This document shows positions 31,825 to 64,000 of a stretch of 64,000 nt of DNA, one piece after another. The notes under the pieces were generated by a model. It ran no database searches. It had not been told where the DNA came from and saw only the letters and a list, made by a program, of their open reading frames with translations. Made by a program: the position numbers and the translations under genes. Source of the DNA: Candidatus Tectimicrobiota bacterium (GTDB taxonomy: Bacteria > JACPUC01); the NCBI GenBank assembly GCA_016192455.1, contig JACPUC010000017.1:62001-126000 (forward strand). The letters run 5' to 3'. The first letter of the stretch is position 1. Each line of letters begins with the position of its first letter.

Positions 31825-33684
31825 ATGGCGCTGGAGTTCGGCACGCGCGGCAAGCTTCTGTTCGTGAACCTAAGCGACGGCTCGACCTCGGTCCGCCCCA
31901 TCGAGGCCGACGATGTCTGGATGTACTACGGCGGTCGGGGCCTGGGGGCCAAGCTCCTCTTCGATCTCGCTCCCAAGGGGGGAACCTACGCCAGCCCCGA
32001 CAACCCCTTCATGCTCCTCTCCGGCCCCCTCACCGGCACCATCTTCCCCACCGCCAACCGCACCTTCGCGTGCTCGCTGTCGCCGCTGACCGACGCTTAC
32101 GGCGGCGCCCTCGGCGGCGGCTCCTTCATGCCGGAGCTGAAGTTCGCCGGCTATGACGGCCTCGTCGTCCTCGGCAAGGCGGAGCACCCGGTCTACCTCG
32201 ACATCCGCAACGAGGCGGTGACGATCCGCGATGCCCGCCACTTGTGGGGGAAACAGACGACGGAGACGCGCGAGACCATCCGCGCGGAGCTCGGCGACGA
32301 CGAGATCAAGACCTGCACCATCGGTCCCGCAGGCGAGCACGACGTGCGCTACGCCTGCCTGATTCTCGACGGGCGCGCCGCCGGCCGCGCCGGCCTCGGC
32401 ACCTCGATGGGCGCCAAAAACCTGAAGGCCGTCGCCGTGCGCGGCAGCGCGGGGGTGGCCCTGGCGAAGCCTGCCGACTTCTTCCGCCTCATGCTGAACT
32501 TCAACACCACCATCGCCAACAGCCCCACGCGCACCCATTTCGGCAAGTGGGGCACGGCCCACGGCATCGACAACCAGAACCAGTTCGGCATCCTGCCGAC
32601 GCGCAACTTCATCGACTCGCAGTTCGTCGGACACAAGGAGTTCGCCACCAAGTACTTCCACACCGAGCACTTTTACCGCGATTTCGGCTGCTTCAGTTGC
32701 CCGGTGGCGTGCACGAACATCGCCCGCGTCAAGGAGGGGAAGTACAAGGGGACGCAGGCCGAAGGACCGGAGTACGAGACCTTCTACTCCCTTGGCGCCA
32801 ACTGCGGCAACGCCGACATGGCCTCGATCGTGTACGGCGACCGCCTCTGCGACGAGCTGGGGCTGGACTCGATGTCGGCCGGCAGCAGCATCGGCTTCGC
32901 CATGGAGTGCTTCGAGCGCGGCCTGCTCAGCCGCGGCGATGTGGATGGCTTCGACCTGCGCTTCGGCAACAGCGACGCCCTCATCGAGCTGCTGCCGAAG
33001 ATCGCCCGGCGCGAGGGCTTCGGGGACCTCCTCGCCGAGGGGGTGCGGCGCATGGCGCGCACGATCGGCCGCGGCAGCGAGGACTTCGCCATGGAGGTGA
33101 AGGGGATGGAGCTGGGCGGCTACGATCCGCGCGCCCTGAAGGCCGAAGGTCTCTCCATGGCCACCTCCGAGCGCGGCGGCTGCCACCACTTCGGCGGGTA
33201 CACCATCTACCTGGAGACCTCCGGGTCGATCAGCAACCTGGCGGTGGAGGGGAAGGGTCAGTTGCTGCAGCAGGTGCGTCGCGGCCGCGTCCTCTGCGAT
33301 TCCACCACCATGTGCTCCTTCCTTGGGGGCACCATCGCCATGCAGCCGAACAACCTCGCCGAAGCCCTGCGCTACGCCACCGGCCTCGACTTCAGCACCG
33401 AGCAGTTGCACCTCATCGCCGACCGCGTCATCGCCCTGGAGCGCTGCATCAACGCACGCTACGGCCTCGGCCGCAAGGACGACACCCTGCCGAAGCGCAT
33501 CCTGACCGAGACGGTGCGCAGTGGGCCGTGGAAGGGGAACACACTGTCGCAGGAGCAGCTCGACAACCTCCTCGACCAGTTCTACACCATCAACGGCTTC
33601 GACCTGACCACCGGCCACCCCACGGCGGAGCGCCTGACCGCGCTGGGCCTCGACGCCGCCCGCGCCGAGCTCTACGCCGCCTGA
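31825..33684 (+). CDS. Aldehyde ferredoxin oxidoreductase (tungsten/molybdenum, AOR family)
   Basis: Oxidises aldehydes to carboxylates, or reduces the acids, with ferredoxin, using a bis-pyranopterin W/Mo cofactor and one [4Fe-4S] cluster. The protein has 619 residues. Domain 1 has GGRGLGAKLLFD and RAAGRAGLGTSMGAKNLKAV. The cluster cysteines are at about 289, 292 and 296 (CFSCPVAC) and 497 (TTMCSF). That spacing agrees closely with archaeal AOR. AEGPEYETFYSLGANCG is also typical. GAGGAG lies before the ATG. A strong intrinsic terminator follows. The oxygen-sensitive cofactor suggests anaerobic or microaerobic use. Confidence 0.93.
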   Translation: MALEFGTRGKLLFVNLSDGSTSVRPIEADDVWMYYGGRGLGAKLLFDLAPKGGTYASPDNPFMLLSGPLTGTIFPTANRTFACSLSPLTDAYGGALGGGSFMPELKFAGYDGLVVLGKAEHPVYLDIRNEAVTIRDARHLWGKQTTETRETIRAELGDDEIKTCTIGPAGEHDVRYACLILDGRAAGRAGLGTSMGAKNLKAVAVRGSAGVALAKPADFFRLMLNFNTTIANSPTRTHFGKWGTAHGIDNQNQFGILPTRNFIDSQFVGHKEFATKYFHTEHFYRDFGCFSCPVACTNIARVKEGKYKGTQAEGPEYETFYSLGANCGNADMASIVYGDRLCDELGLDSMSAGSSIGFAMECFERGLLSRGDVDGFDLRFGNSDALIELLPKIARREGFGDLLAEGVRRMARTIGRGSEDFAMEVKGMELGGYDPRALKAEGLSMATSERGGCHHFGGYTIYLETSGSISNLAVEGKGQLLQQVRRGRVLCDSTTMCSFLGGTIAMQPNNLAEALRYATGLDFSTEQLHLIADRVIALERCINARYGLGRKDDTLPKRILTETVRSGPWKGNTLSQEQLDNLLDQFYTINGFDLTTGHPTAERLTALGLDAARAELYAA

Positions 33685-35767: not shown

Positions 35768-35962
35768 AACGCTCTCCTTGCTGAGCTTGCAACCGTTCCT
35801 GGAGAATTCCCGCGGGTGCTACTCTAACGCGCTTGGCGCGGAGAGGCAAGGCAGTTGCCGCCGGCGGGAGGGTGTGGTAGGAGACCCTCAGCGGGAACCG
35901 TGAGGCCGAGGGGAAGCGGGGCTTCGGTGGCGCTGCCGGGGGGCGGCGCGGGAGGAGCTGCC

Positions 35963-37306
35963 ATGTTCGAGTCACTCGGCGCGTTTGTTGATCACCTGCG
36001 CGCCCAGGGCAAGCTCGTTGACATCGACGAGGAGCTGTCACCCGACTACGAAGTGGCCGCCGCCGTGCGCCTCATCGACCAGCGCCTCGGCAAGGCGGTG
36101 CTCTGCCGCAAGGTGCGCGGCTGCGGCATGCCGGTGGTGGCGAATATCCTGGCGCGGCGCGACCTCCTGCGGCTCGCCTTCGCCTCTCCGAACGACCCCA
36201 CCGAGGAGTACCTGCGGCGCATCGGCGGCTCCCTGCCGCCCGAGGTGGTGCGCGCGGCCCCCGTGCACGAGGTGGTCCACGACGGCGACTTCGACGTCGC
36301 CAAGCTCTTGCCGCTTTTGCTGCACCATGAGAAGGACGCGGCGCGCTACATCTCCAGCGGCGTCACCGTGTCGCGCGACCCGCAGACCGGCCTGCGCGGC
36401 ATGGGCATCTACCGCATCCAGGTGTGCGGCCCGCGCGAGCTGACGATCTCCATCGGCTCGCCGCCGGTCAGCGACTTCCTGGCGAAGGCGAACGCGACCG
36501 GCAAACCGCTCCCCGTCGCCATCGCCATCGGCTTGGAGCCGCTGAGCTACTTCGCCTCGGTGGTACCGGTCGCTGCGGGAGTCGACAAGTTCGACGCCGC
36601 CGGGACCTTACGCGGCGCGCCGGTGCCGCTCGTCGCGGCACGGACACAGCCCGTGGAGGTGTATGCCGAGGCCGAGATCGTCCTCGAGGGGGAGATGCTG
36701 CCGAACACGCAGCGCGAGGATGGACCAGTGGGGGAATCGACGGGCTACTACCACGCCGGCAGAAGCTGGGCGGCGCGCCTGACGGCGGTGACGCACCGGG
36801 CGCACCCCTTCTACTACGCCCTCGTGCCGTTCGCGGCGGAGAACACGCTGCTCATGGGGGTGACGCGCGAGGCTGACCTCCTCGCCGCGCTGCGCCGCAA
36901 GTTCCCCAGCGTGCGGCGCGTCTCCCTCACGCAGGGGAGCGTGGCGATGCTCGCCATCATCCAGGCTGCGCCGGCGAGCAAGGAGGAGGCGACGGCGATG
37001 GTGCGCGCCGCCCTCGAGGGATCAATGCAGGTGAAGACCGCCATCCTCGTCGATGCGGACGTGGACCCCCACGACCTCAACGACGTGCAGTGGGCGCTCA
37101 GCACGCGCTTCCAGGCCGACCGCGACCTCCTGGTGCTGCGCGACCTGCCGGGGTCGCCGATCGATCCCACCGCCACGAACCGGCGCACCGCCAAGCTCGG
37201 CCTCGACGCCACCCGGCCCGCGGATCAGGCTGAGGCCTTCATGCGCATCGCCCTGGATCCCGCGGCGCGGCGGCGCGTGGAGGAGATTCTGGCGCGGCTG
37301 ACCTGA
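35963..37306 (+). CDS. UbiD family decarboxylase (second copy)
   Basis: 447-residue member of the prFMN-dependent decarboxylase family. SGVTVSRDPQTGLRGMGIYR keeps the catalytic Arg of the N/G-x4-R motif. AEIVLEGEMLP carries the metal Glu, and the catalytic loop reads EDGPVGESTGYY. There the first Glu of EGPFGE is Asp and the second is kept. DADVDPHDLNDVQWALSTR is the usual C-terminal segment. The ATG at 35963 follows GGGAGGAG. It is divergent from the ThDP gene across 195 bases and may share control with it. Substrate is probably an aromatic or unsaturated acid. Confidence 0.9.
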   Translation: MFESLGAFVDHLRAQGKLVDIDEELSPDYEVAAAVRLIDQRLGKAVLCRKVRGCGMPVVANILARRDLLRLAFASPNDPTEEYLRRIGGSLPPEVVRAAPVHEVVHDGDFDVAKLLPLLLHHEKDAARYISSGVTVSRDPQTGLRGMGIYRIQVCGPRELTISIGSPPVSDFLAKANATGKPLPVAIAIGLEPLSYFASVVPVAAGVDKFDAAGTLRGAPVPLVAARTQPVEVYAEAEIVLEGEMLPNTQREDGPVGESTGYYHAGRSWAARLTAVTHRAHPFYYALVPFAAENTLLMGVTREADLLAALRRKFPSVRRVSLTQGSVAMLAIIQAAPASKEEATAMVRAALEGSMQVKTAILVDADVDPHDLNDVQWALSTRFQADRDLLVLRDLPGSPIDPTATNRRTAKLGLDATRPADQAEAFMRIALDPAARRRVEEILARLT

Positions 37307-44301: not shown

Positions 44302-45321
44302 TTAGCTCGACGGCAGCAAGCTCAGGTCCACCACCTTTTCCATCGGCACCGCGGACTTGATCAGCCCCACCTTCACCAGATAGTCCTGGAAGCGGGCGAT
44401 CGACGGCACGTCCGGCTTGCCGTTGGGGTCGAGGTAGAAGGCGTGGTCGGCTGACTTGGCGATGATGTCGGGCGGCGTCTTGATGAACTTGCCGAAGATG
44501 CCGATGATCTCCTTGTTGGCCAGGCCGCGCTCGTTGTAGTAGCGGATTCCCTTCACGTAGGCCCGCAGCCAGCGCTTGCCCACCTCGCGGCGCTCCGTAA
44601 GAGCCTTGTTGCTGAAGATGAAAAGGCCGGTCTGGCCCACCTCGAGGCCCGGCAGCTCGTGCACCTCGACCAGGCGGTAGGCAAGGCCACGCGTTACTGC
44701 GATGGTGGGCCAAGGCTCCGAGCCCGTCGAGGCATCGATGGTCTTGTTCTGCAAGGCGGGGATGATGTTGGGCGGCTGCATGGCCACGTGCTCGACGTCA
44801 TCGAAGCTCAGCCCACTCAGCTCGAGGGCGCGCCCGAGGTAGTAGGAAGCAACGTTCCCCTTGCCGAACTGCGCCACCTTCATCCCCTTGAGGTCCTTCA
44901 TCGACTTCACCTTGCCGCTGTCGAAGAGGTCCTTGCGGACGAGAATCGAGGAGTAGCCATACCCCTTCCGGCCCTGTCCCTTGTCGGCCACGGCCTTGAA
45001 TTTCTCGCCCTGGGCAATGGAGTTAAAGAGACCGGCGCTCGGCCCGCCCCCGGCGACATCGATATCCCCGGTCGCCAGCGGGGCCATCATTTTCGTTCCG
45101 GAGGCGAAGCGCACCAGCTCGTTCTTGATCCCCTCCTCCTCGAAGTACTTCTTTTCCATCGCCACGTACAACGCCGCGAAGGAGAGTACCGGGAGGTAGC
45201 CCGTCTTGACGAGCTCTTGCGCGGCAGAGACGGTACTCCCGCCAAGGAGCATGGCAACCGTCAGCACGACCACGGCGCCGCTTCGCAACAGCGTTCCGCA
45301 CCACCCCCACCTCTTTTCCAT
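44302..45321 (-). CDS. ABC transporter substrate-binding protein, NitT/TauT (SsuA) type
   Basis: 339-residue periplasmic binding protein. The signal peptide runs MEKRWGWCGTLLRSGAVVVL to SAAQ, then VKTGYLPVLSFAALYVAMEK and KKYFEEEGIKNELVRFASGT open the mature domain. GDIDVAGGGPSAGLFNSIAQ and DLKGMKVAQFGKG are typical of nitrate/sulfonate/taurine and pyrimidine-precursor receptors. ATG 45321 follows GGGAGGATC. It is the last gene of the minus-strand cluster with the AprA-like flavoprotein and ferredoxin. No permease or ATPase gene is adjacent. Confidence 0.87.
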   Translation of the reverse strand: MEKRWGWCGTLLRSGAVVVLTVAMLLGGSTVSAAQELVKTGYLPVLSFAALYVAMEKKYFEEEGIKNELVRFASGTKMMAPLATGDIDVAGGGPSAGLFNSIAQGEKFKAVADKGQGRKGYGYSSILVRKDLFDSGKVKSMKDLKGMKVAQFGKGNVASYYLGRALELSGLSFDDVEHVAMQPPNIIPALQNKTIDASTGSEPWPTIAVTRGLAYRLVEVHELPGLEVGQTGLFIFSNKALTERREVGKRWLRAYVKGIRYYNERGLANKEIIGIFGKFIKTPPDIIAKSADHAFYLDPNGKPDVPSIARFQDYLVKVGLIKSAVPMEKVVDLSLLPSS

Positions 45322-45488
45322 GATCCTCCCTCCCCTCAAAGGCCCTCCTCGGAGCCGGGGGGCCCGAACCTGTCGCCCCCGGTGGGACTCCCGTCCTGCG
45401 CACTGGAGATCGTGGCGCGGACACCGGCGTGGGCGCTCCAGCTCAGCGCCGCCGGTCCACGCAGCGTGTCCGCCGAACACGCCCCTCG

Positions 45489-45683
45489 TCAGCTCTGAAA
45501 CCAAAGCTTGACGCTCAACGCATGCGTGGGGCAGTCCTCCACGCAGGCGGCGCAGTGCCAGCACTCCTGGATGCGAAACAGCGGGTAGTTCTCCGCATCC
45601 ATGTAGATGATGTCCCCCGGGCAAATCTCCTCGCACAGGGTGCACTTCTTCAGGCATTTCTCTCTCTCCAGCAGAATAGCCAC
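45489..45683 (-). CDS. Two-cluster [4Fe-4S] ferredoxin (AprB-like)
   Basis: 64-residue ferredoxin with two C-x2-C-x(2-3)-C-x3-C-P units: KCLKKCTLCEEICPGDIIY and ECWHCAACVEDCPTHAL. The CWHCAACVEDCP form resembles the iron-sulfur subunit of adenylylsulfate reductase, but the AprB tail is absent. It starts at GTG with GAGGAG upstream. It follows the flavoprotein gene by 124 bases and is presumably its electron partner. Confidence 0.88.
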   Translation of the reverse strand: MAILLEREKCLKKCTLCEEICPGDIIYMDAENYPLFRIQECWHCAACVEDCPTHALSVKLWFQS

Positions 45684-45807
45684 AGGGTGCGCTCCTCATC
45701 TCCTGCACTGGTGCGTGGTCAACTCGACGTATCGACGCTCGTTGCGGCGTCACGTGGCCGACGCCGCCGGGCTTCCGCGCGCCTCCGCGGCGGCCGGCGT
45801 CTCGCCG

Positions 45808-47454
45808 TCACGGCAAGGGTCGCTGGTTCACCCGCAGAGAATCGCCGACCTTCTGGACGACAAGGTGTTTCAACCAGTTCCCGTCGTCGCGTTCGGTGTA
45901 ATCGGTGCGGCGGTGGTTGAGGAACATGCGCGATTCCTTGCGCTCTCTCGCCGCCAAGGTGATCGCCTCGGCCACTTCGGCCATGTTGATCGCTTCGTGC
46001 GCTTTCACCTTCTGCTGCACGGTGCGGGCGCCGACCTGGTCGTAGGCGTAGCGCTGGATGCCGCGGATGCGCTCCAGGGCATGGGTCAGGCCCACCTCGT
46101 TGCGATCGTAGCAGACGTAGCTCGACATGACGCGCTGCAGGTTGCGCTCGATCTGCACCGGCTCGACGCCCTCGGGGCGGCGCATCGGCAGCTCGAGGCG
46201 CTCCACCGCCGCCTGGATCGTCTTCTCCGAGGCGCGCGCCGGCCTCCGTAGTGATTTCGCGTAGTCGGCGGCCCGCTGCGCTCCCTCCCAGCCGAGGACC
46301 ATCGCGCCGGTGGCGGAGTAGAAGCCGCTGTAGGCCGTGGCGTCCCCCACCCCGAAGAGGCCGGGCAAGGTGAGGCTGAAATCGTGCCCCACGTCGATGC
46401 CGCCGGTCATCATGCCGCGAGTGTACGGCTCGGAGACCTCGATCTCCATCATGCTCTGCTCGAGATCGATGTCGCGCTCCTCGAAGTAGCGGAAGTAGGT
46501 CGGCTTCTCGTTGCGGAACCCGCGCAGGACGATCTCCACGTGCTCGCGGTCGAGGTCGCGGAAATCCAGGAAGACGGGGCCGCGCCCCTCCTTGATCTCG
46601 GTGTAGACGGCGTAGACGAGGAGCTGCCGCGGCGCTTTCTCCATGCGCTCGCCGGCATACTTGCCCATGAAGCGCTCGCCGTTCGCATTGATGAGCTTGG
46701 CGCCGACGCCGATGAAGGAGTTGATGCCCGGCGCGGTGAAGTCCTTCGGCACCAGGGTCCCCTGCACGAACTCCATGTGCTTCAGGCGCGCCCCCGCGCG
46801 CAGCGCCGCGGCGTAGCCGTCGCCGGTGTGGTAGGGGTTGCGCCAGCGGTTGAAGTTCTCGCCGCTGGGGGCCTGGTACATGCGCGTGCAGCCGCCCGAG
46901 GCGATCACCGTCGCCTTGGCCTGAGCGATCAGCGGTTCGCCGCTGCGCGTGTCGAACCCGGCCGCCCCGACGACCTCGCCGTTCTCCACCAGGAGATCGG
47001 TCATCATGACGCGGTTGAAGATGCGGGCGCCGCTCTTCTTCACCTGCCGGGCATGCCCTTTCTTGAGGTCGAGGCCGTTCCAGATGTAGAGGTTGCAGCT
47101 CCAGAACATCGACTGGTCCCACACCAGGTTGCCCTGATCGTCGCGCACCTGGATGCCCCACTCCTCGAGGCGCTCCATCATTGGGTAGGAGCCGTCGAGA
47201 ATGAGCTCCACGAAGGTCTCGTCCTGCAGGCCATGACAGGCCCGCTTCATGCCGTCGATCTCCGCCTGCTTGTCGTGCACGCCGGGGATGAGGCAGGCGA
47301 TGTCCTTCAGCCCCATGCAGGCCTCGCCGCTGTGGTGCACGAACTGCTTCTCGAGGACCGCCACGTCGAGGCCGTTCTGGCGGGCGCGCACCGCCGCCTG
47401 GCAGCCTGCCAGCCCGCCGCCGATGATCAGGACGTCCGTGTCGATGCGTTGCAT
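45808..47454 (-). CDS. AprA-like FAD-dependent oxidoreductase (fumarate reductase/adenylylsulfate reductase superfamily)
   Basis: 548-residue flavoprotein. The FAD motif is VLIIGGGLAGCQAAVRARQN (8-27), followed by VIASGGCTRMYQAPSGENFN, then GDGYAAALRAGARLKHMEFV. GMMTGGIDVGHDF, GLFGVGDATAYSGFYSATGA and the C-terminal helical domain (ALERIRGIQRYAYDQVGA) complete the AprA/FrdA layout. No fumarate-specific residue set could be confirmed. Paired with a small ferredoxin, an MFS carrier and a binding protein, it probably reduces or oxidises an imported anion or organic acid. AGGAG precedes the ATG, 23 bases after the MFS stop. Confidence 0.87.
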   Translation of the reverse strand: MQRIDTDVLIIGGGLAGCQAAVRARQNGLDVAVLEKQFVHHSGEACMGLKDIACLIPGVHDKQAEIDGMKRACHGLQDETFVELILDGSYPMMERLEEWGIQVRDDQGNLVWDQSMFWSCNLYIWNGLDLKKGHARQVKKSGARIFNRVMMTDLLVENGEVVGAAGFDTRSGEPLIAQAKATVIASGGCTRMYQAPSGENFNRWRNPYHTGDGYAAALRAGARLKHMEFVQGTLVPKDFTAPGINSFIGVGAKLINANGERFMGKYAGERMEKAPRQLLVYAVYTEIKEGRGPVFLDFRDLDREHVEIVLRGFRNEKPTYFRYFEERDIDLEQSMMEIEVSEPYTRGMMTGGIDVGHDFSLTLPGLFGVGDATAYSGFYSATGAMVLGWEGAQRAADYAKSLRRPARASEKTIQAAVERLELPMRRPEGVEPVQIERNLQRVMSSYVCYDRNEVGLTHALERIRGIQRYAYDQVGARTVQQKVKAHEAINMAEVAEAITLAARERKESRMFLNHRRTDYTERDDGNWLKHLVVQKVGDSLRVNQRPLP

Positions 47455-47477
47455 TGCGAGTCTCCTGCCTCGGCGCG

Positions 47478-48644
47478 CTAGGCTGGAACCAAGCTGACGC
47501 GCCGCACGATGAACAGCCCCGCTCCCATGCCGAGCGCGACGTAGAGCGCCAGCGCGTTGAAGAGGGCCGGCAGCCCGAAGAGATCAGCCACGCTGCCCAG
47601 CAGCGTATTGACGACGATGCCGCTGAGGACGGCGCTGGTGTTGAAGAGCCCCAGGGCGACGGCCTGCCGGTGCTGCGGGTGGGCCTCCATCAGGTAGGCG
47701 GCGATCACACCCACGTTGGCGGTGAGAAAGAAGCCGAAACAGATGCCGAAGACCAGCAGCGGCCACCCCGGCGGCACCACCGGCAGCAGCAGCAGGAGGA
47801 CGATGTTGCACGCGAAGATGAGGTAGGCGATGTGCAGGCGCTTCCAGCGGTCCGAGAGCCAGCCCAGGCCGGGATTGGCCACGAAGGCCACGAGGTTGAT
47901 GAGGGTGAAGAGGAAGGTCGTCTCTCCCAGCTCCAAGCCCTTCACCTCCCGCAGGTACACCGGCAGGAAGCTCGAGGCGACGAAGAAATTCGTGAACAGG
48001 AGGGCGTTGAGGAGACTCGCCGCCTGGAAGGATGGCCGGCGCAGGATTTCGAGCAGGCGCAGCGGCGGGCGGCGATCCCCAGGCGGACGGTCCTCCACCC
48101 CGCGGGTGGTGAACCAGAAGCCGATCCCCAGCGCCAGGGCGAGCAGGCCGTAGCTGGTGAACGCCACGCGCCACCCCGCCAACGCCGCCACCGCCCCCAC
48201 GAGGGCCGCGCCGTAAGCCCGGCCGGTGGCTGATCCCACAGTGTGGAGGCCGTAAGCGCGCCCGCGCTCGTTCGGCAGGAAGACCTCGCCGATGAGCGAG
48301 AAGCCGGAGGTGAAGTAGAGGCTGAAGGCGAAACCGGCGACGAAGCGGTAGAGGAGGAAGAGCGGCAGGGAGCCGGCCGCCCACGCCGAGGCGATGGCGG
48401 TGCCACCGAGGAGCAACCCCGAGGCGACGATGGCCACCCGCCGGCCGATGGCCGTCGCCACGTATCCCCCCGCGATGAGCGTCACGGCGTAGCCGGCATC
48501 GTAGGTGGCGAGGAGCGCCGCGGCTCCGCCATAGCTCAGGCCAAACTCGCCGCGGATTTCCGCCAGCACGATCGCCAGGGCGCTGCGGTTGGCGTGGCAG
48601 AGCGAGAACGCCGCACTGCATGCAAGCAGGACGCGCCATTTCAG
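47478..48644 (-). CDS. MFS transporter with apparent CTG start
   Basis: 388-residue major-facilitator carrier with about twelve hydrophobic segments. The motif A-like loop is GGYVATAIGRRVAIVASGL, and the second-half counterpart is NPGLGWLSDRWKRLH. A GTG at 48569 would delete the first helix. Reading from CTG 48644 restores KWRVLLACSAAFSLCHANRS, a normal MFS helix 1. AAGGAGG lies seven bases before that CTG. The CTG overlaps the gntR stop as CTGA, like the common ATGA coupling. No other in-frame ATG, GTG or TTG lies between. Substrate is likely that of the AprA-like enzyme downstream. Confidence 0.85.
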   Translation of the reverse strand: MKWRVLLACSAAFSLCHANRSALAIVLAEIRGEFGLSYGGAAALLATYDAGYAVTLIAGGYVATAIGRRVAIVASGLLLGGTAIASAWAAGSLPLFLLYRFVAGFAFSLYFTSGFSLIGEVFLPNERGRAYGLHTVGSATGRAYGAALVGAVAALAGWRVAFTSYGLLALALGIGFWFTTRGVEDRPPGDRRPPLRLLEILRRPSFQAASLLNALLFTNFFVASSFLPVYLREVKGLELGETTFLFTLINLVAFVANPGLGWLSDRWKRLHIAYLIFACNIVLLLLLPVVPPGWPLLVFGICFGFFLTANVGVIAAYLMEAHPQHRQAVALGLFNTSAVLSGIVVNTLLGSVADLFGLPALFNALALYVALGMGAGLFIVRRVSLVPA

Positions 48645-49576
48645 CGGTCACCCTCCTTCCCAGCGAGCCGCTGCCCCGATCGCCGCCCGCGCCCGGCTGG
48701 AGCCGCTGCGCCGCGCTGCGCCTGCGCTCCGCTCCCCGCCGGAGGCAGTTTCCTCTCGGTCGCCCGTCTCCCGCTGCCGCTCAGCTTTCTCGCGCCCCGC
48801 TGGGGCCCGGCACCGGCGCGGCGCGGCGGCGCCCCAGGAGCGACCCCCTCATCCTTGTCTGCCGGCTCCGTCGCGCTGCGCCGCCCCCACTCCCGCACGT
48901 CGAGGATGTGTTCGGCCATGATGGCGCGGGCGCGGTCTCCGTCGTGTTGCGCCAGGGCGTCATAGATGCGCTCGTGGTAGCGGATCGCCGCCGTCATGCT
49001 CTCCTCGTCGACGGGGACGTCGGCGAACGACGCGATGAGGCTGTGCTTGAAGGAGTGCATGATGATGCTGATGGCCGGGTTGTGGGCGGCATCCGCCACC
49101 AAGAGGTGGAAATCGAGGTGGGAGAACTTGGCGGCTCGCCGCGCCGCGAGATCGCGCCGGGCGAGATCGAGCGCCCCGGCCATCCGTTCGAGGTCCTCCG
49201 CCGTGGCGCGCTCGGCGGCAAGTCGCGCCACGTACGGCTCGAGCGCCACCCGCACCTCGGTATGGTCGTCAAGGCTGACGATCCCTAGGCGGATGGCCCG
49301 CGCCAGGGAGTCGCCGACGACGCGGTGGTCGGGGTGGTTGATGAAGCAGCCGCCCGCCGCCCCCTGCCGGATACTGATGAGGCCCAGGGCCTCGAGCGTG
49401 CGCAGGGCCTCGCGCACCGAGGAGCGGCTGCTGGCGAACTGGCGGGCCAGCTCGTACTCCGCGGGGAGGCGGTCGCCCGGAGCGAGGAGGCCACGGTAGA
49501 TCGCCCCCTCGATCTGCCCGACGATCTCCTGCGGCCGCCGGAAGGGCGCGTGCAGAGGCTGGAAGAGGTTGGCCAT
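48641..49576 (-). CDS. GntR family transcriptional regulator (FadR/FCD subfamily)
   Basis: 311-residue regulator. The winged helix at about 15-80 contains GQIEGAIYRGLLAPGDRLPA, then ELARQFASSRSSVREALRTL and LGLISIRQGAAGGCFI. The FCD effector domain follows at about 95-225, with metal-site residues suggested by FHLLVADAAHNPAI and IRYHERIYDAL. About 85 C-terminal residues are an extra Arg/Ala/Gly/Pro-rich, probably disordered tail. FCD regulators sense small acids. It heads the minus-strand cluster, and its stop overlaps the MFS start, so it very likely controls this operon. Confidence 0.9.
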   Translation of the reverse strand: MANLFQPLHAPFRRPQEIVGQIEGAIYRGLLAPGDRLPAEYELARQFASSRSSVREALRTLEALGLISIRQGAAGGCFINHPDHRVVGDSLARAIRLGIVSLDDHTEVRVALEPYVARLAAERATAEDLERMAGALDLARRDLAARRAAKFSHLDFHLLVADAAHNPAISIIMHSFKHSLIASFADVPVDEESMTAAIRYHERIYDALAQHDGDRARAIMAEHILDVREWGRRSATEPADKDEGVAPGAPPRRAGAGPQRGARKLSGSGRRATERKLPPAGSGAQAQRGAAAPAGRGRRSGQRLAGKEGDR

Positions 49577-49679
49577 GGGACGTCGTCCTGGCAGCCGCCG
49601 CGGCCTTGCCGGCAGCCACGGGCTGGCGGCGCGCCCTGCGAGGCCACGGCGCTCGCAGCGCCGGCGAGATCGGAGTAAG

Positions 49680-49695
49680 TGTCTTACGTCGGACA
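49680..49695. promoter_or_regulatory. Candidate GntR operator
   Basis: TGTC-TTACGTCG-GACA is an inverted repeat at 49680-49695. It overlaps the end of the -10 and the expected transcription start of the gntR promoter. FCD-type GntR sites often are short T-N-GT-N-AC-N-A palindromes, so autoregulation is plausible. Confidence 0.35.
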
Positions 49696-49722
49696 TTTAC
49701 CCGCAATACATCCCCCTGTCAA
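49694..49722 (-). promoter_or_regulatory. Candidate promoter of the gntR-MFS-flavoprotein cluster
   Basis: On the minus strand TTGACA (49722-49717), a 17-base spacer and TAAATG (49699-49694). The -35 is perfect and the -10 is weak. It lies about 118 bases before the gntR ATG. Confidence 0.45.
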
Positions 49723-49868
49723 GAGGGTCCCCGGACGCGCCGCAGCGGTCGGCAGCGCCCTACGCCGCAACGCCCGCCCACCACCGGGCGCGGCGGCGCA
49801 CCGTCTCGTGACGTATGCCCTCGCGCCGCCGCGGGGCAGAACGGAGCGCATGGAACGTCCGGGCACTC

Positions 49869-50903
49869 TTAGCGCGGCTTCGCGAACGAGGTATCCACGT
49901 AGTCGGCGGCGTTCAGCCGCGTCTTGGTGTAGCCCCATTCCTTGAGGAGATCGAAGTTGCGCTGCAGCACCTCCAGGCTCGGCAAGGCGTCGGGGTCGCG
50001 GTAGAGGTCCTGTTTCGAGAACGCCCAGCCCTTGTAGCGGCCCACGGGGGCCTTCGTGAAGCGCGCCGTGATCTCCAGCGCCTCGTCGCGGTTCTTGGGA
50101 TCGATGAACCACTTCCAGGCCTTCACCCAGTCGCTGAAGAACTGCCGCGCCAGCTCAGGGTTCTGCCGCAGCCACTCGGTGCGGGCCACCTTCATGATCA
50201 TCTCGTTCGTCCCCACGGCGTCGGCGGCGGTGAAGAGGGGCCGAATGCCGCCCGCCTGCCGCGCCTTGGCCCAGAACGGGATCAGGAAGACCGCCGCATC
50301 GACCTTGCGCTCGCGCAGCATGGCCTCGTTGTTGGGGAACTCCACCTCGATGATGCGGTAGTCGCGCTTGTCCTCCATGCCGTGCTTGCGCATGATGACG
50401 CGGATCGGAATATCGAGGCCGCCGCCGATGACATTCGTGGAGATGACCTTGCCCCGCAGGTCGGCAACCGAACGGACGGGGGAGTCCTCCAGCACCCCCC
50501 AGGTGATGGAGAAGTAGCCCGGCTGCCCGTCGCGGTTGAGCGCCGCCACAGCCTTCACTTCCAACCCCGCCCGTTCGATCCCGAAGGCGAGGCTGGTGTA
50601 AGAGAGGGTGCCGAGATCGATCCCCTTCCCCGCCAGCGCCTGGATCTGCGGCGAGGTACCCCGGAAGTGGCTGAATTCGATGGTGTACGTCTTGCCGTAG
50701 TAAGTGAGGAGCGCCGGTTTTTCGAACAGCAGGGGGGTGATGTCCGACGGCGGCGTGCCGTAGCCCACCCTGACCTTCAGCGGCTCGGCGGCGGGAGCGG
50801 GGCTGCTCACGAGCGCCAAGCAGAGCAGACTGAGCAGGCTCACCCCAGCGGCACGCAGGCGTCTTCGTCCACCAGTCAGCTTCTCGGGCCCACTCCTTTC
50901 CAT
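49869..50903 (-). CDS. ABC transporter substrate-binding protein, NitT/TauT-like (second)
   Basis: 344-residue periplasmic receptor. A signal peptide (RAAGVSLLSLLCLALVSS, cleaved after PAPAAE) leads to VRVGYGTPPSDITPLLFEKP, then AGKGIDLGTLSYTSLAFGIE and DLRGKVISTNVIGGGLDIPI. The fold is periplasmic type II. It differs clearly from the receptor at 44302-45321. ATG 50903 follows GGAGGAGG. It lies upstream of gntR on the same strand, with no transporter partner next to it. It may serve the cluster, or a distant permease. Confidence 0.82.
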   Translation of the reverse strand: MERSGPEKLTGGRRRLRAAGVSLLSLLCLALVSSPAPAAEPLKVRVGYGTPPSDITPLLFEKPALLTYYGKTYTIEFSHFRGTSPQIQALAGKGIDLGTLSYTSLAFGIERAGLEVKAVAALNRDGQPGYFSITWGVLEDSPVRSVADLRGKVISTNVIGGGLDIPIRVIMRKHGMEDKRDYRIIEVEFPNNEAMLRERKVDAAVFLIPFWAKARQAGGIRPLFTAADAVGTNEMIMKVARTEWLRQNPELARQFFSDWVKAWKWFIDPKNRDEALEITARFTKAPVGRYKGWAFSKQDLYRDPDALPSLEVLQRNFDLLKEWGYTKTRLNAADYVDTSFAKPR

Positions 50904-52435: not shown

Positions 52436-53356
52436 TCAGCGCTCAATCGGCAGATCGTCGCGATTGCCCCACTCCGCCCACGAGCCGTCATAGCCACGCA
52501 CCGTCGGATACCCCAGATTGCGCAGAGTTACATACGTGTGGGCGGCGCGGTGCATGGTCTGGCAGTAGACCACCACCTCCTTGTCCTTGGTGATGCCCTT
52601 GGCCTCGTACATCGCCGCGAGATCGCGCGCCCCCTTCCAGCGCGGCCCCTGCGCGCCCCCCTCAAGGTTCTCCAACCACTCAATATGCTTCGCGCCGGGG
52701 ATATGGCCACCCCGTTTTGCACGCACCTGCGCGCCCGTGTACTCAGCGGCGCTGCGGGCATCGACGATCGCCACCTTCGGGTTGGTCAGCTTGCCGCGCA
52801 GCTCCTCCGCCGTGATGATGAGCTGGGGTTGCAACGCAACCTGGAAGGTTGCCGGCGTCACCGTGGGGAGAGTGGTCGTCACGGCTCCGCCGTCGCTCCG
52901 CCAAGCCTTCAGGCCGCCGTCGAGCAGCTTGACGTTCTGGTGCCCGGCGTACTCGAGCGTCCAGAAGAGGCGCGCCGCGTTCAGCCCGCTGTCGGCATCA
53001 TAGACGACGACGGGCGTCTGGCGGCTGACGCCCCGCTCGCCGACCGCCTTTGCGATCACCTCCGCAGACGCCGCCATGCCGGGCACGCCCTTGACGGTGG
53101 CGCGGACGGCATCCTGCGGCAAGCTCAGCGCCCCCGGCAGGTGGCCCGCCGCGTACTCCTCAGCGCTGCGCGCGTCGAGGATGCGCAGCGTCGGGTCGCT
53201 GAGCCGGGCGCGCAGCCACGTCACATCAACGATTACCTGCGCCTGACTGCTGGCTACCGGCGCGGCTGCCAGCCAGATGGCGAGAATCGCCAGGCCGGCC
53301 AGGATGATGAGCGCACCCTGCGTTCTCTTACCGTTGCACCAATGCCGACTGCTCAT
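52436..53356 (-). CDS. Exported sulfurtransferase with two rhodanese domains
   Basis: 306-residue thiosulfate/3-mercaptopyruvate sulfurtransferase-like protein. An N-terminal hydrophobic segment (ALIILAGLAILAIWLAAAPV) suggests export or anchoring. Domain 1 (about 40-170) has LRILDARSAEEYAAGHLPGA and no active Cys. Domain 2 (about 180-305) has VDARSAAEYTGA and the active loop VVVYCQTMHRAAHTY with the persulfide Cys. The CQTMHRA loop is a variant of the usual six-residue CRxGxR/T loop. AAGGAG lies before the ATG. The product probably handles sulfane sulfur in the periplasm. Confidence 0.9.
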   Translation of the reverse strand: MSSRHWCNGKRTQGALIILAGLAILAIWLAAAPVASSQAQVIVDVTWLRARLSDPTLRILDARSAEEYAAGHLPGALSLPQDAVRATVKGVPGMAASAEVIAKAVGERGVSRQTPVVVYDADSGLNAARLFWTLEYAGHQNVKLLDGGLKAWRSDGGAVTTTLPTVTPATFQVALQPQLIITAEELRGKLTNPKVAIVDARSAAEYTGAQVRAKRGGHIPGAKHIEWLENLEGGAQGPRWKGARDLAAMYEAKGITKDKEVVVYCQTMHRAAHTYVTLRNLGYPTVRGYDGSWAEWGNRDDLPIER

Positions 53357-62872: not shown

Positions 62873-64000
62873 TCAGCCGTAACGCTCGTACGGGATGTTC
62901 GTCAGCCGGTCGCGCGGGATGAAGTTCTCCAGGTCGATCTTCTCCATGACATCCTGGGGCACCGAGAGCTTGCGCGCGAAGCGCCGCGGGTCCACCGGTT
63001 TGGTGCAGTCGAAGCCGGTCTTCGTGCCCAGTTCGCTGGGGCGGCTGGGATCAAGGGTGGGGGCCGGCAACCCCGGCAAGACGACGATGTCGCGGTCGCC
63101 CTGGAAGCGGGTGGCGAAGGCCTGCATCACCTGCTGCTCGTCGAAGATATCGACATCGGTGTCGAAGACCCAGGCGTGCTTCACCAGGTGGTGCGAGGTG
63201 AGGGCTTCGACGAGGGCGATCTTGCTGCTCCCCTCGACGAGCTTGTCGATCTGCAGGTAGAGGTGGAACTGGCCGCAGCCGGACATGGGAGCGTAGACGT
63301 TGGTGATCGTCGGCACGGCGCGGCGCACCTTCTCGTAGGCGGCCCCCTCGCGCGTCAGCGAGCCGAGGCAGTGCGAGTGCCCCACCATGAGGTCGTACCA
63401 GTGGGCGCCGGCGCGGTGCGTCACCGCTGTCACCTCGAGGTACGGGTTCCAGCGCTGCGGGCCGCTGTAGCGGGTGTACTCGCCGAAGGGGCCTTCGGGA
63501 CGGCGCTTGCCGGCCATCAGGTGGCCCTCGATGACGAACTCGGCGTCCGCCGGCACCAGGAAGTCGTCGCCCAGGGTCTCCGACGGCACCAGTCGCAGGG
63601 GTTGGCCCAGCATGCCGCCGGCGGCCGCGAAGTGGCTATCGGTGAGGGGGATGCGCGTCTCGCAACCGAGGATGACGAGAGGGTGGGCACCCACCCAGTA
63701 GGCCACCCGCAGGTCCTCCCGGCGGCGCTCGTGCAGGGCGAAGATGTGGCCGTTGTGGGTGCTCGCTTCGAGCAGGACGCGAATCTCCCGCGGGCCGTGG
63801 ATCCAGCCGCGGTGCAGGGCCGAGTTGTCGGTGCCGTACTCCGGGTGGTAGCAGGTGAGAAAGCCGCCGCTGATGTAGGGCCCCGGGTCCATGTCGTGGT
63901 GGACGAGGGCCGGCAGTTTCGTCAGGTCTATCTCGTCGCCGCGCGCCACGACCTCCTTCACCGGCGCCTGGGCGCGCTTCACGACCACCGGCTGCCGGCG
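62873..64000 (-). CDS. UbiD family decarboxylase (third copy), N-terminus beyond the window
   Basis: At least 375 codons of a prFMN-dependent decarboxylase; the frame is open to the window edge, so the start lies outside. The key elements are intact: GTDNSALHRGWIHG (Asn and catalytic Arg), ADAEFVIEGHL (metal Glu) and RRPEGPFGEYTRYSG with both catalytic Glu. DTDVDIFDEQQVMQAFATR is the usual C-terminal segment. Of the three UbiD homologues here, this is the one with the canonical motif. Downstream are the zinc-ribbon gene and the M20 gene. Confidence 0.92.
   Translation of the reverse strand, partial: RRQPVVVKRAQAPVKEVVARGDEIDLTKLPALVHHDMDPGPYISGGFLTCYHPEYGTDNSALHRGWIHGPREIRVLLEASTHNGHIFALHERRREDLRVAYWVGAHPLVILGCETRIPLTDSHFAAAGGMLGQPLRLVPSETLGDDFLVPADAEFVIEGHLMAGKRRPEGPFGEYTRYSGPQRWNPYLEVTAVTHRAGAHWYDLMVGHSHCLGSLTREGAAYEKVRRAVPTITNVYAPMSGCGQFHLYLQIDKLVEGSSKIALVEALTSHHLVKHAWVFDTDVDIFDEQQVMQAFATRFQGDRDIVVLPGLPAPTLDPSRPSELGTKTGFDCTKPVDPRRFARKLSVPQDVMEKIDLENFIPRDRLTNIPYERYG

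Follow-up and report, generated by a model that had tools for sequence, protein, structure and literature searches.

An apparently uncharacterised flavoprotein–ferredoxin pair of AprAB-like architecture in a six-gene cluster with two NMT1-type receptors

The cluster at positions 44302-50903 of the window (the whole 64,000 nt stretch of Candidatus Tectimicrobiota DNA analysed here) raises the question of which reaction might be served by an AprA/FrdA-type flavoprotein encoded together with a small ferredoxin, a carrier, a regulator and two periplasmic receptors. The first-pass annotation had described six genes on one strand; inspection of the sequence and of its open reading frames placed all of them on the minus strand and within the span given, and each of the six had an above-cut-off Pfam match to the expected domains. 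The most upstream gene codes for SBP1, an NMT1_2/SsuA-like periplasmic receptor (49869..50903; NMT1_2, 1.4e-14). It is followed by a GntR-family regulator with an FCD ligand-binding domain and a long, low-complexity C-terminal tail (48641..49576; GntR, 3.3e-16; FCD, 2.4e-22), an MFS transporter (probably 47478..48644; MFS_1, 5e-44), a 548-aa FAD flavoprotein of the AprA/FrdA superfamily (45808..47454; FAD_binding_2, 1.2e-39; Succ_DH_flav_C, 1.6e-17), a 64-aa ferredoxin similar to the core of AprB, with eight cysteines for two [4Fe-4S] clusters (45489..45683; Fer4_9/Fer4_7), and finally SBP2, an NMT1/SsuA-like periplasmic receptor (44302..45321; NMT1_2, 7.7e-21). Both receptor genes gave NMT1/NMT1_2 matches in Pfam. 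The six-gene cluster contains no gene for an ABC permease or ATPase, and no sulfite exporter or other sulfur gene. Elsewhere in the window, a rhodanese gene was found at 52436-53356 and an aldehyde ferredoxin oxidoreductase gene at 31825-33684 on the plus strand (AFOR_C, 4.5e-121).

The start codons were read from the sequence. SBP1 starts at the ATG at 50903, preceded by GGAGGA, and SBP2 at the ATG at 45321, preceded by GGGAGG; gntR and the flavoprotein gene start at ATG codons (49576 and 47454, respectively) and the ferredoxin gene at a GTG (45683). The GTG listed for the MFS gene (48569; minimal ORF 47478-48569) truncates it. Its start is probably the CTG at 48644 (48642-48644, minus strand), which predicts a protein of 388 aa; this codon shares bases with the gntR stop codon (CTGA) and lies 7 nt beyond a ribosome binding site, GGAAGGAGG. 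The remaining gaps measure 292 bp (SBP1-gntR), 23 bp (MFS-flavoprotein), 124 bp (flavoprotein-ferredoxin) and 167 bp (ferredoxin-SBP2). Given the 292 bp between SBP1 and gntR, the six genes may not share one transcript, and SBP1 may form a transcription unit of its own. Promoter and terminator scans of the cluster gave nothing decisive.

The closest PDB entry to the flavoprotein was the alpha subunit of the PAPS reductase of Methanothermococcus thermolithotrophicus (MtPAPSR; 8a8o_A), both by sequence (6e-62) and in a fold search with an AlphaFold2 model (E 1.6e-30). The model was of middling confidence (mean pLDDT 69.5, pTM 0.73) and used an input alignment drawn from distant NadB-like loci. 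None of the cut-offs of the curated family models was reached: PRK08275 (NF006131) gave 310 bits against 587, PRK06854 263 against 557, TIGR01812 (SdhA/FrdA) 212 against 567, and the aprA model 111.6 against 641.75.

In its residues, the active site is a hybrid. Arg276 aligns without gaps with Arg286 of SdhA and with the corresponding Arg of NadB and FrdA, the catalytic Arg of these enzymes; the column is invariant in the NadB alignment. Trp204 falls at the alignment position of the FAD-site Trp in AprA and MtPAPSR. In contrast, the His common to AprA, MtPAPSR, the PRK08275 module, SDH, FRD and NadB is missing both from this protein and from its same-genome paralogue. Of the AprA positions Asn74, Arg265 and His398 (A. 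fulgidus numbering), Asn74 is replaced by Ala53 and Arg265 by Val235, and the shared His column holds no His; the automatic mapping onto the A. fulgidus protein was shifted beyond position ∼100 by dropped columns, so that Arg265 and Trp234 were located by visual inspection of the alignment. The dicarboxylate ligands of SdhA have likewise been lost: His242 corresponds to Thr233 and Thr254/Glu255 to a gap and Asn245, while His354 and Arg399 have no equivalent. The protein shares with SdhA, FrdA and NadB the fold and the catalytic Arg, but neither their ligand set nor their partner protein. This residue pattern would be most simply explained by C-C/C-N chemistry of the SDH type with another substrate.

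The ferredoxin carries two four-cysteine sets, C-x3-C-x2-C-x3-CP and C-x2-C-x2-C-x3-CP. Trp42 stands directly after the fifth cysteine (ECWHCAAC), as it does in AprB and PAPS reductase; in MtPAPSR a role in electron transfer has been proposed for Trp42 (PMC10322725). The protein matched the MtPAPSR beta subunit (8a8o_C, 4e-10) and AprB (1jnr_B, 8.5e-7). The aprB model gave only 34.0 bits against a cut-off of 135.65, and the protein stops where AprB goes on into its C-terminal tail. The flavoprotein thus has beside it an eight-cysteine, 2x[4Fe-4S] beta-subunit candidate with a possible electron-bridge Trp, as in AprAB and MtPAPSR, and since the AprB/PAPS-reductase Trp is retained, the label of an AprAB-like two-subunit oxidoreductase holds. 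This bears out the first-pass annotation, which had paired an AprA/FrdA-type flavoprotein with a compact 8Fe ferredoxin in place of AprB. The likeness to MtPAPSR (8A8O) extends to the FAD alpha subunit, the small eight-cysteine beta subunit and the aligned Trp204 and Trp42; however, the alpha subunits are only ∼29% identical in structural alignment, the Asn, Arg and His shared by MtPAPSR and AprA are absent, and the two proteins fall in separate clades. AprAB shares the superfamily fold and the partnering of a FAD subunit with a two-cluster ferredoxin, but differs in the AprB tail and in the catalytic positions.

Two trees (59 and 57 rows) paired the flavoprotein with a paralogue encoded in the same genome (P0002; 70% identity) with 100% support and on a long stem. 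In both, the pair was placed outside AprA/PAPSR, the PRK08275-type module and SDH/FRD/NadB. The trees were built quickly and have long branches, which leaves the order of the deep nodes uncertain. AU tests rejected a position within AprA (p=0.0004) and within SDH/FRD (p=6e-55), and weakly rejected a grouping with the PRK08275 module (p=0.02); a position as sister to AprA and PAPSR together was not rejected (p=0.198). A grouping with sequences of another phylum, G137, appeared in the AU-test tree without support (39%). Together with its paralogue, the flavoprotein forms a deep clade of its own. The phylogeny that the first-pass annotation proposed as a check placed the flavoprotein firmly neither with AprA nor with fumarate reductase, and the annotation's view that this is not the enzyme of sulfate reduction is upheld by the rejected AprA clade, by the low aprA score and by the genome, in which no AprA was found at a stringent threshold and no match to ATP-sulfurylase (PF01747) in an assembly that is 88% complete.

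Among 386 diverse genomes, just four others passed the 1e-70 threshold for the flavoprotein. Homologues scoring 300-324 bits, the highest-scoring foreign relatives, were present in seven of the 18 genomes of the G137 phylum; wherever the neighbours could be read, a ferredoxin adjoined the flavoprotein. This pair shares the SDH-type Arg, and its ferredoxin is 42–45% identical, with the CPGDII and CW motifs, but it is deeply separate and has other neighbours: creatininase, VOC, FrsA-like hydrolase or PF13433 receptor genes lie near some of the loci (L083-L086, L088, L089). A profile search of contigs returned nothing but NadB-like loci of Bacteroidota and their kin, because its two-sequence alignment used only two peptide patterns.

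A more distant and widespread module, carried by plasmids in Cyanobacteria, Actinomycetota and Pseudomonadota (L052-L059, L062), combines a flavoprotein, a ferredoxin, a HEAT protein and a NitT/TauT-type ABC transporter; in some cases the HEAT protein is fused to the flavoprotein (NCBIfam PRK13800), and DUF971 or Mrp often accompanies the module. It resembles the cluster in its nearby Trp-bearing 8Fe ferredoxin, its SBP receptor and, in some records, a GntR regulator. However, the flavoproteins are only ∼30% identical, the module keeps the His, and the window cluster lacks the HEAT, permease and ATPase genes. In one Nostoc record, other genes separate the flavoprotein from the ferredoxin. Literature searches on the module found nothing relevant and no paper describing it, most subscription papers being outside their reach.

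The locus of the paralogue (L029) encodes an SBP2-type receptor (40% identical, E=2e-75) and an SBP1-type receptor (31%, E=7e-52), together with UbiD, a TPP-enzyme C-terminal domain protein, HyuA, HyuB, a PF04199 cyclase, an amidohydrolase, and an apparent ABC ATPase with two permeases. No ferredoxin, GntR or MFS gene was found near the paralogue within the 20 kb read, so these three may not be obligate partners. Across the genome, which encodes 17 SBP1-type and 19 SBP2-type receptors, an SBP2-type receptor lay within 5 kb of three of the five loci of this flavoprotein/ferredoxin type (0.21 expected, P=0.0007) and an SBP1-type receptor within 5 kb of two (0.19 expected, P=0.013), both figures coming from a small sample. 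SBP1 and SBP2 were considered as a uniquely paired set, and this was rejected: the receptors of the paralogue locus come from the same two subfamilies, yet the genome encodes closer relatives of both SBP1 and SBP2. The neighbourhood is therefore conserved in part. Both types of receptor are found again at the paralogue locus, and the ferredoxin in relatives, while GntR and MFS are missing from the paralogue locus; the earlier idea of a dedicated carrier and regulator is thus supported only in part.

The directly established features—gene content, fold family, cysteine, tryptophan and active-site residues, separate phylogenetic position, and the recurrence of SBP1- and SBP2-type receptors at the paralogue locus—are best read, if tentatively and at somewhat less than even chance, as those of a ferredoxin-linked dehydrogenase or reductase of an imported organic acid, an apparently uncharacterised oxidoreductase of AprAB architecture. 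Its own deep branch and different active site suggest that it probably acts on an imported organic acid and, since the dicarboxylate clamp is replaced, on one different from the SDH substrates. The flavoprotein and the adjacent ferredoxin would form an AprAB/PAPSR-like complex, with FAD in the alpha subunit, a beta subunit holding two [4Fe-4S] clusters, and Trp42 on the cluster side as a putative electron bridge. Such pairing is supported by the small ferredoxin gene beside or close to the flavoprotein gene in the distant module, in the G137 phylum and at three other loci of the same genome. Arg276 may act as a proton shuttle in the dehydrogenation or reduction of a C-C (or C-N) bond, nearer to the SDH/aspartate oxidase type than to sulfite chemistry. 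The acid might be imported through the NMT1-type receptors, the MFS carrier or both, and the FCD regulator could sense it or its product. Complex formation, electron flow, redox direction, substrate class and the tie of receptors, carrier and regulator to this enzyme are all inferences.

It is also conceivable, but unlikely, that the enzyme handles an organosulfur compound (sulfonate or sulfite) like the distant HEAT/ABC module, making or breaking a C-S or S-O bond, with receptors that bind a sulfonate. Both receptors are nearest to SsuA-type profiles (TIGR01728, 131 and 105 bits), albeit below the 163.5 cut-off. The distant module, for which sulfur chemistry is plausible, often adjoins TauE/SafE sulfite exporters, YeiH or a putative sulfate exporter, and once lies near a 3-mercaptopropionate dioxygenase and a rhodanese-related protein; the rhodanese gene at 52436-53356 of the window could be read in the same sense. 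Against this, identity to that module is low and the grouping with it weakly rejected, Asn74, Arg265 and the shared His of AprA/PAPSR are not conserved, and the cluster has no sulfur gene, nor the genome an ATP-sulfurylase match. The first-pass annotation had proposed an organic or sulfur-containing anion as substrate; for the branch in the window the sulfur half is weakened by the loss of the AprA/PAPSR positions and the retention of the SDH-type Arg. Just as improbable is that the functional unit comprises only the flavoprotein and ferredoxin, with or without the receptors, GntR and MFS being an unrelated carrier operon. The paralogue locus without GntR and MFS and the different neighbours in the G137 phylum are consistent with this, but the overlap of the gntR stop with the proposed MFS start and the 23 bp MFS-flavoprotein gap, all on one strand, are typical of an operon. 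A diverged APS/PAPS or fumarate reductase of anabolic redox metabolism, to which the best PDB match and the unrejected sister position to AprA plus PAPSR might point, is strongly contradicted and highly improbable, given AprA, SDH and FRD model scores far under cut-off, both clades rejected, catalytic and ligand residues lost and no ATP-sulfurylase match.

A more specific form of the organic-acid reading draws on the genome, whose repertoire of UbiD proteins and NMT1-type receptors is exceptional: the pair would found a new AprAB-like class of ferredoxin-linked flavoenzymes, with carboxylated aromatic or N-heterocyclic acids as substrates of an SDH-type C-C/C-N reaction, working beside UbiD decarboxylases and cyclic-amide hydrolases. 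We regard it as possible, though doubtful. Should the organic-acid reading hold, the AprAB/PAPSR architecture, so far characterised for APS/PAPS reduction, would extend to other chemistry, and genes named 'fumarate reductase/succinate dehydrogenase flavoprotein' may be misnamed where a small ferredoxin and a NitT/TauT receptor are encoded alongside. The cluster is also an entry point to the metabolism of its lineage.

The 4.46 Mb genome has 59 matches to the UbiD family of prenylated-FMN decarboxylases, a number far above the usual; three are inside the window, among them those at 35855-37306 (plus strand) and 62873-63988 (minus strand). It also encodes 72 NMT1_2-type substrate-binding proteins. 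Eight of the 19 SBP2-type receptors have a UbiD gene within 5 kb (2.4 expected, P=0.001). Three of the five flavoprotein loci are within 10 kb of a UbiD gene (1.2 expected, P=0.086), which is suggestive and is not taken as proof. On other contigs, three loci (L030, L031 and L033) each encode a deep AprA-like flavoprotein followed by a small eight-cysteine ferredoxin that lacks the Trp; L030 additionally contains UbiD, TPP-enzyme N and C proteins, and two receptors.
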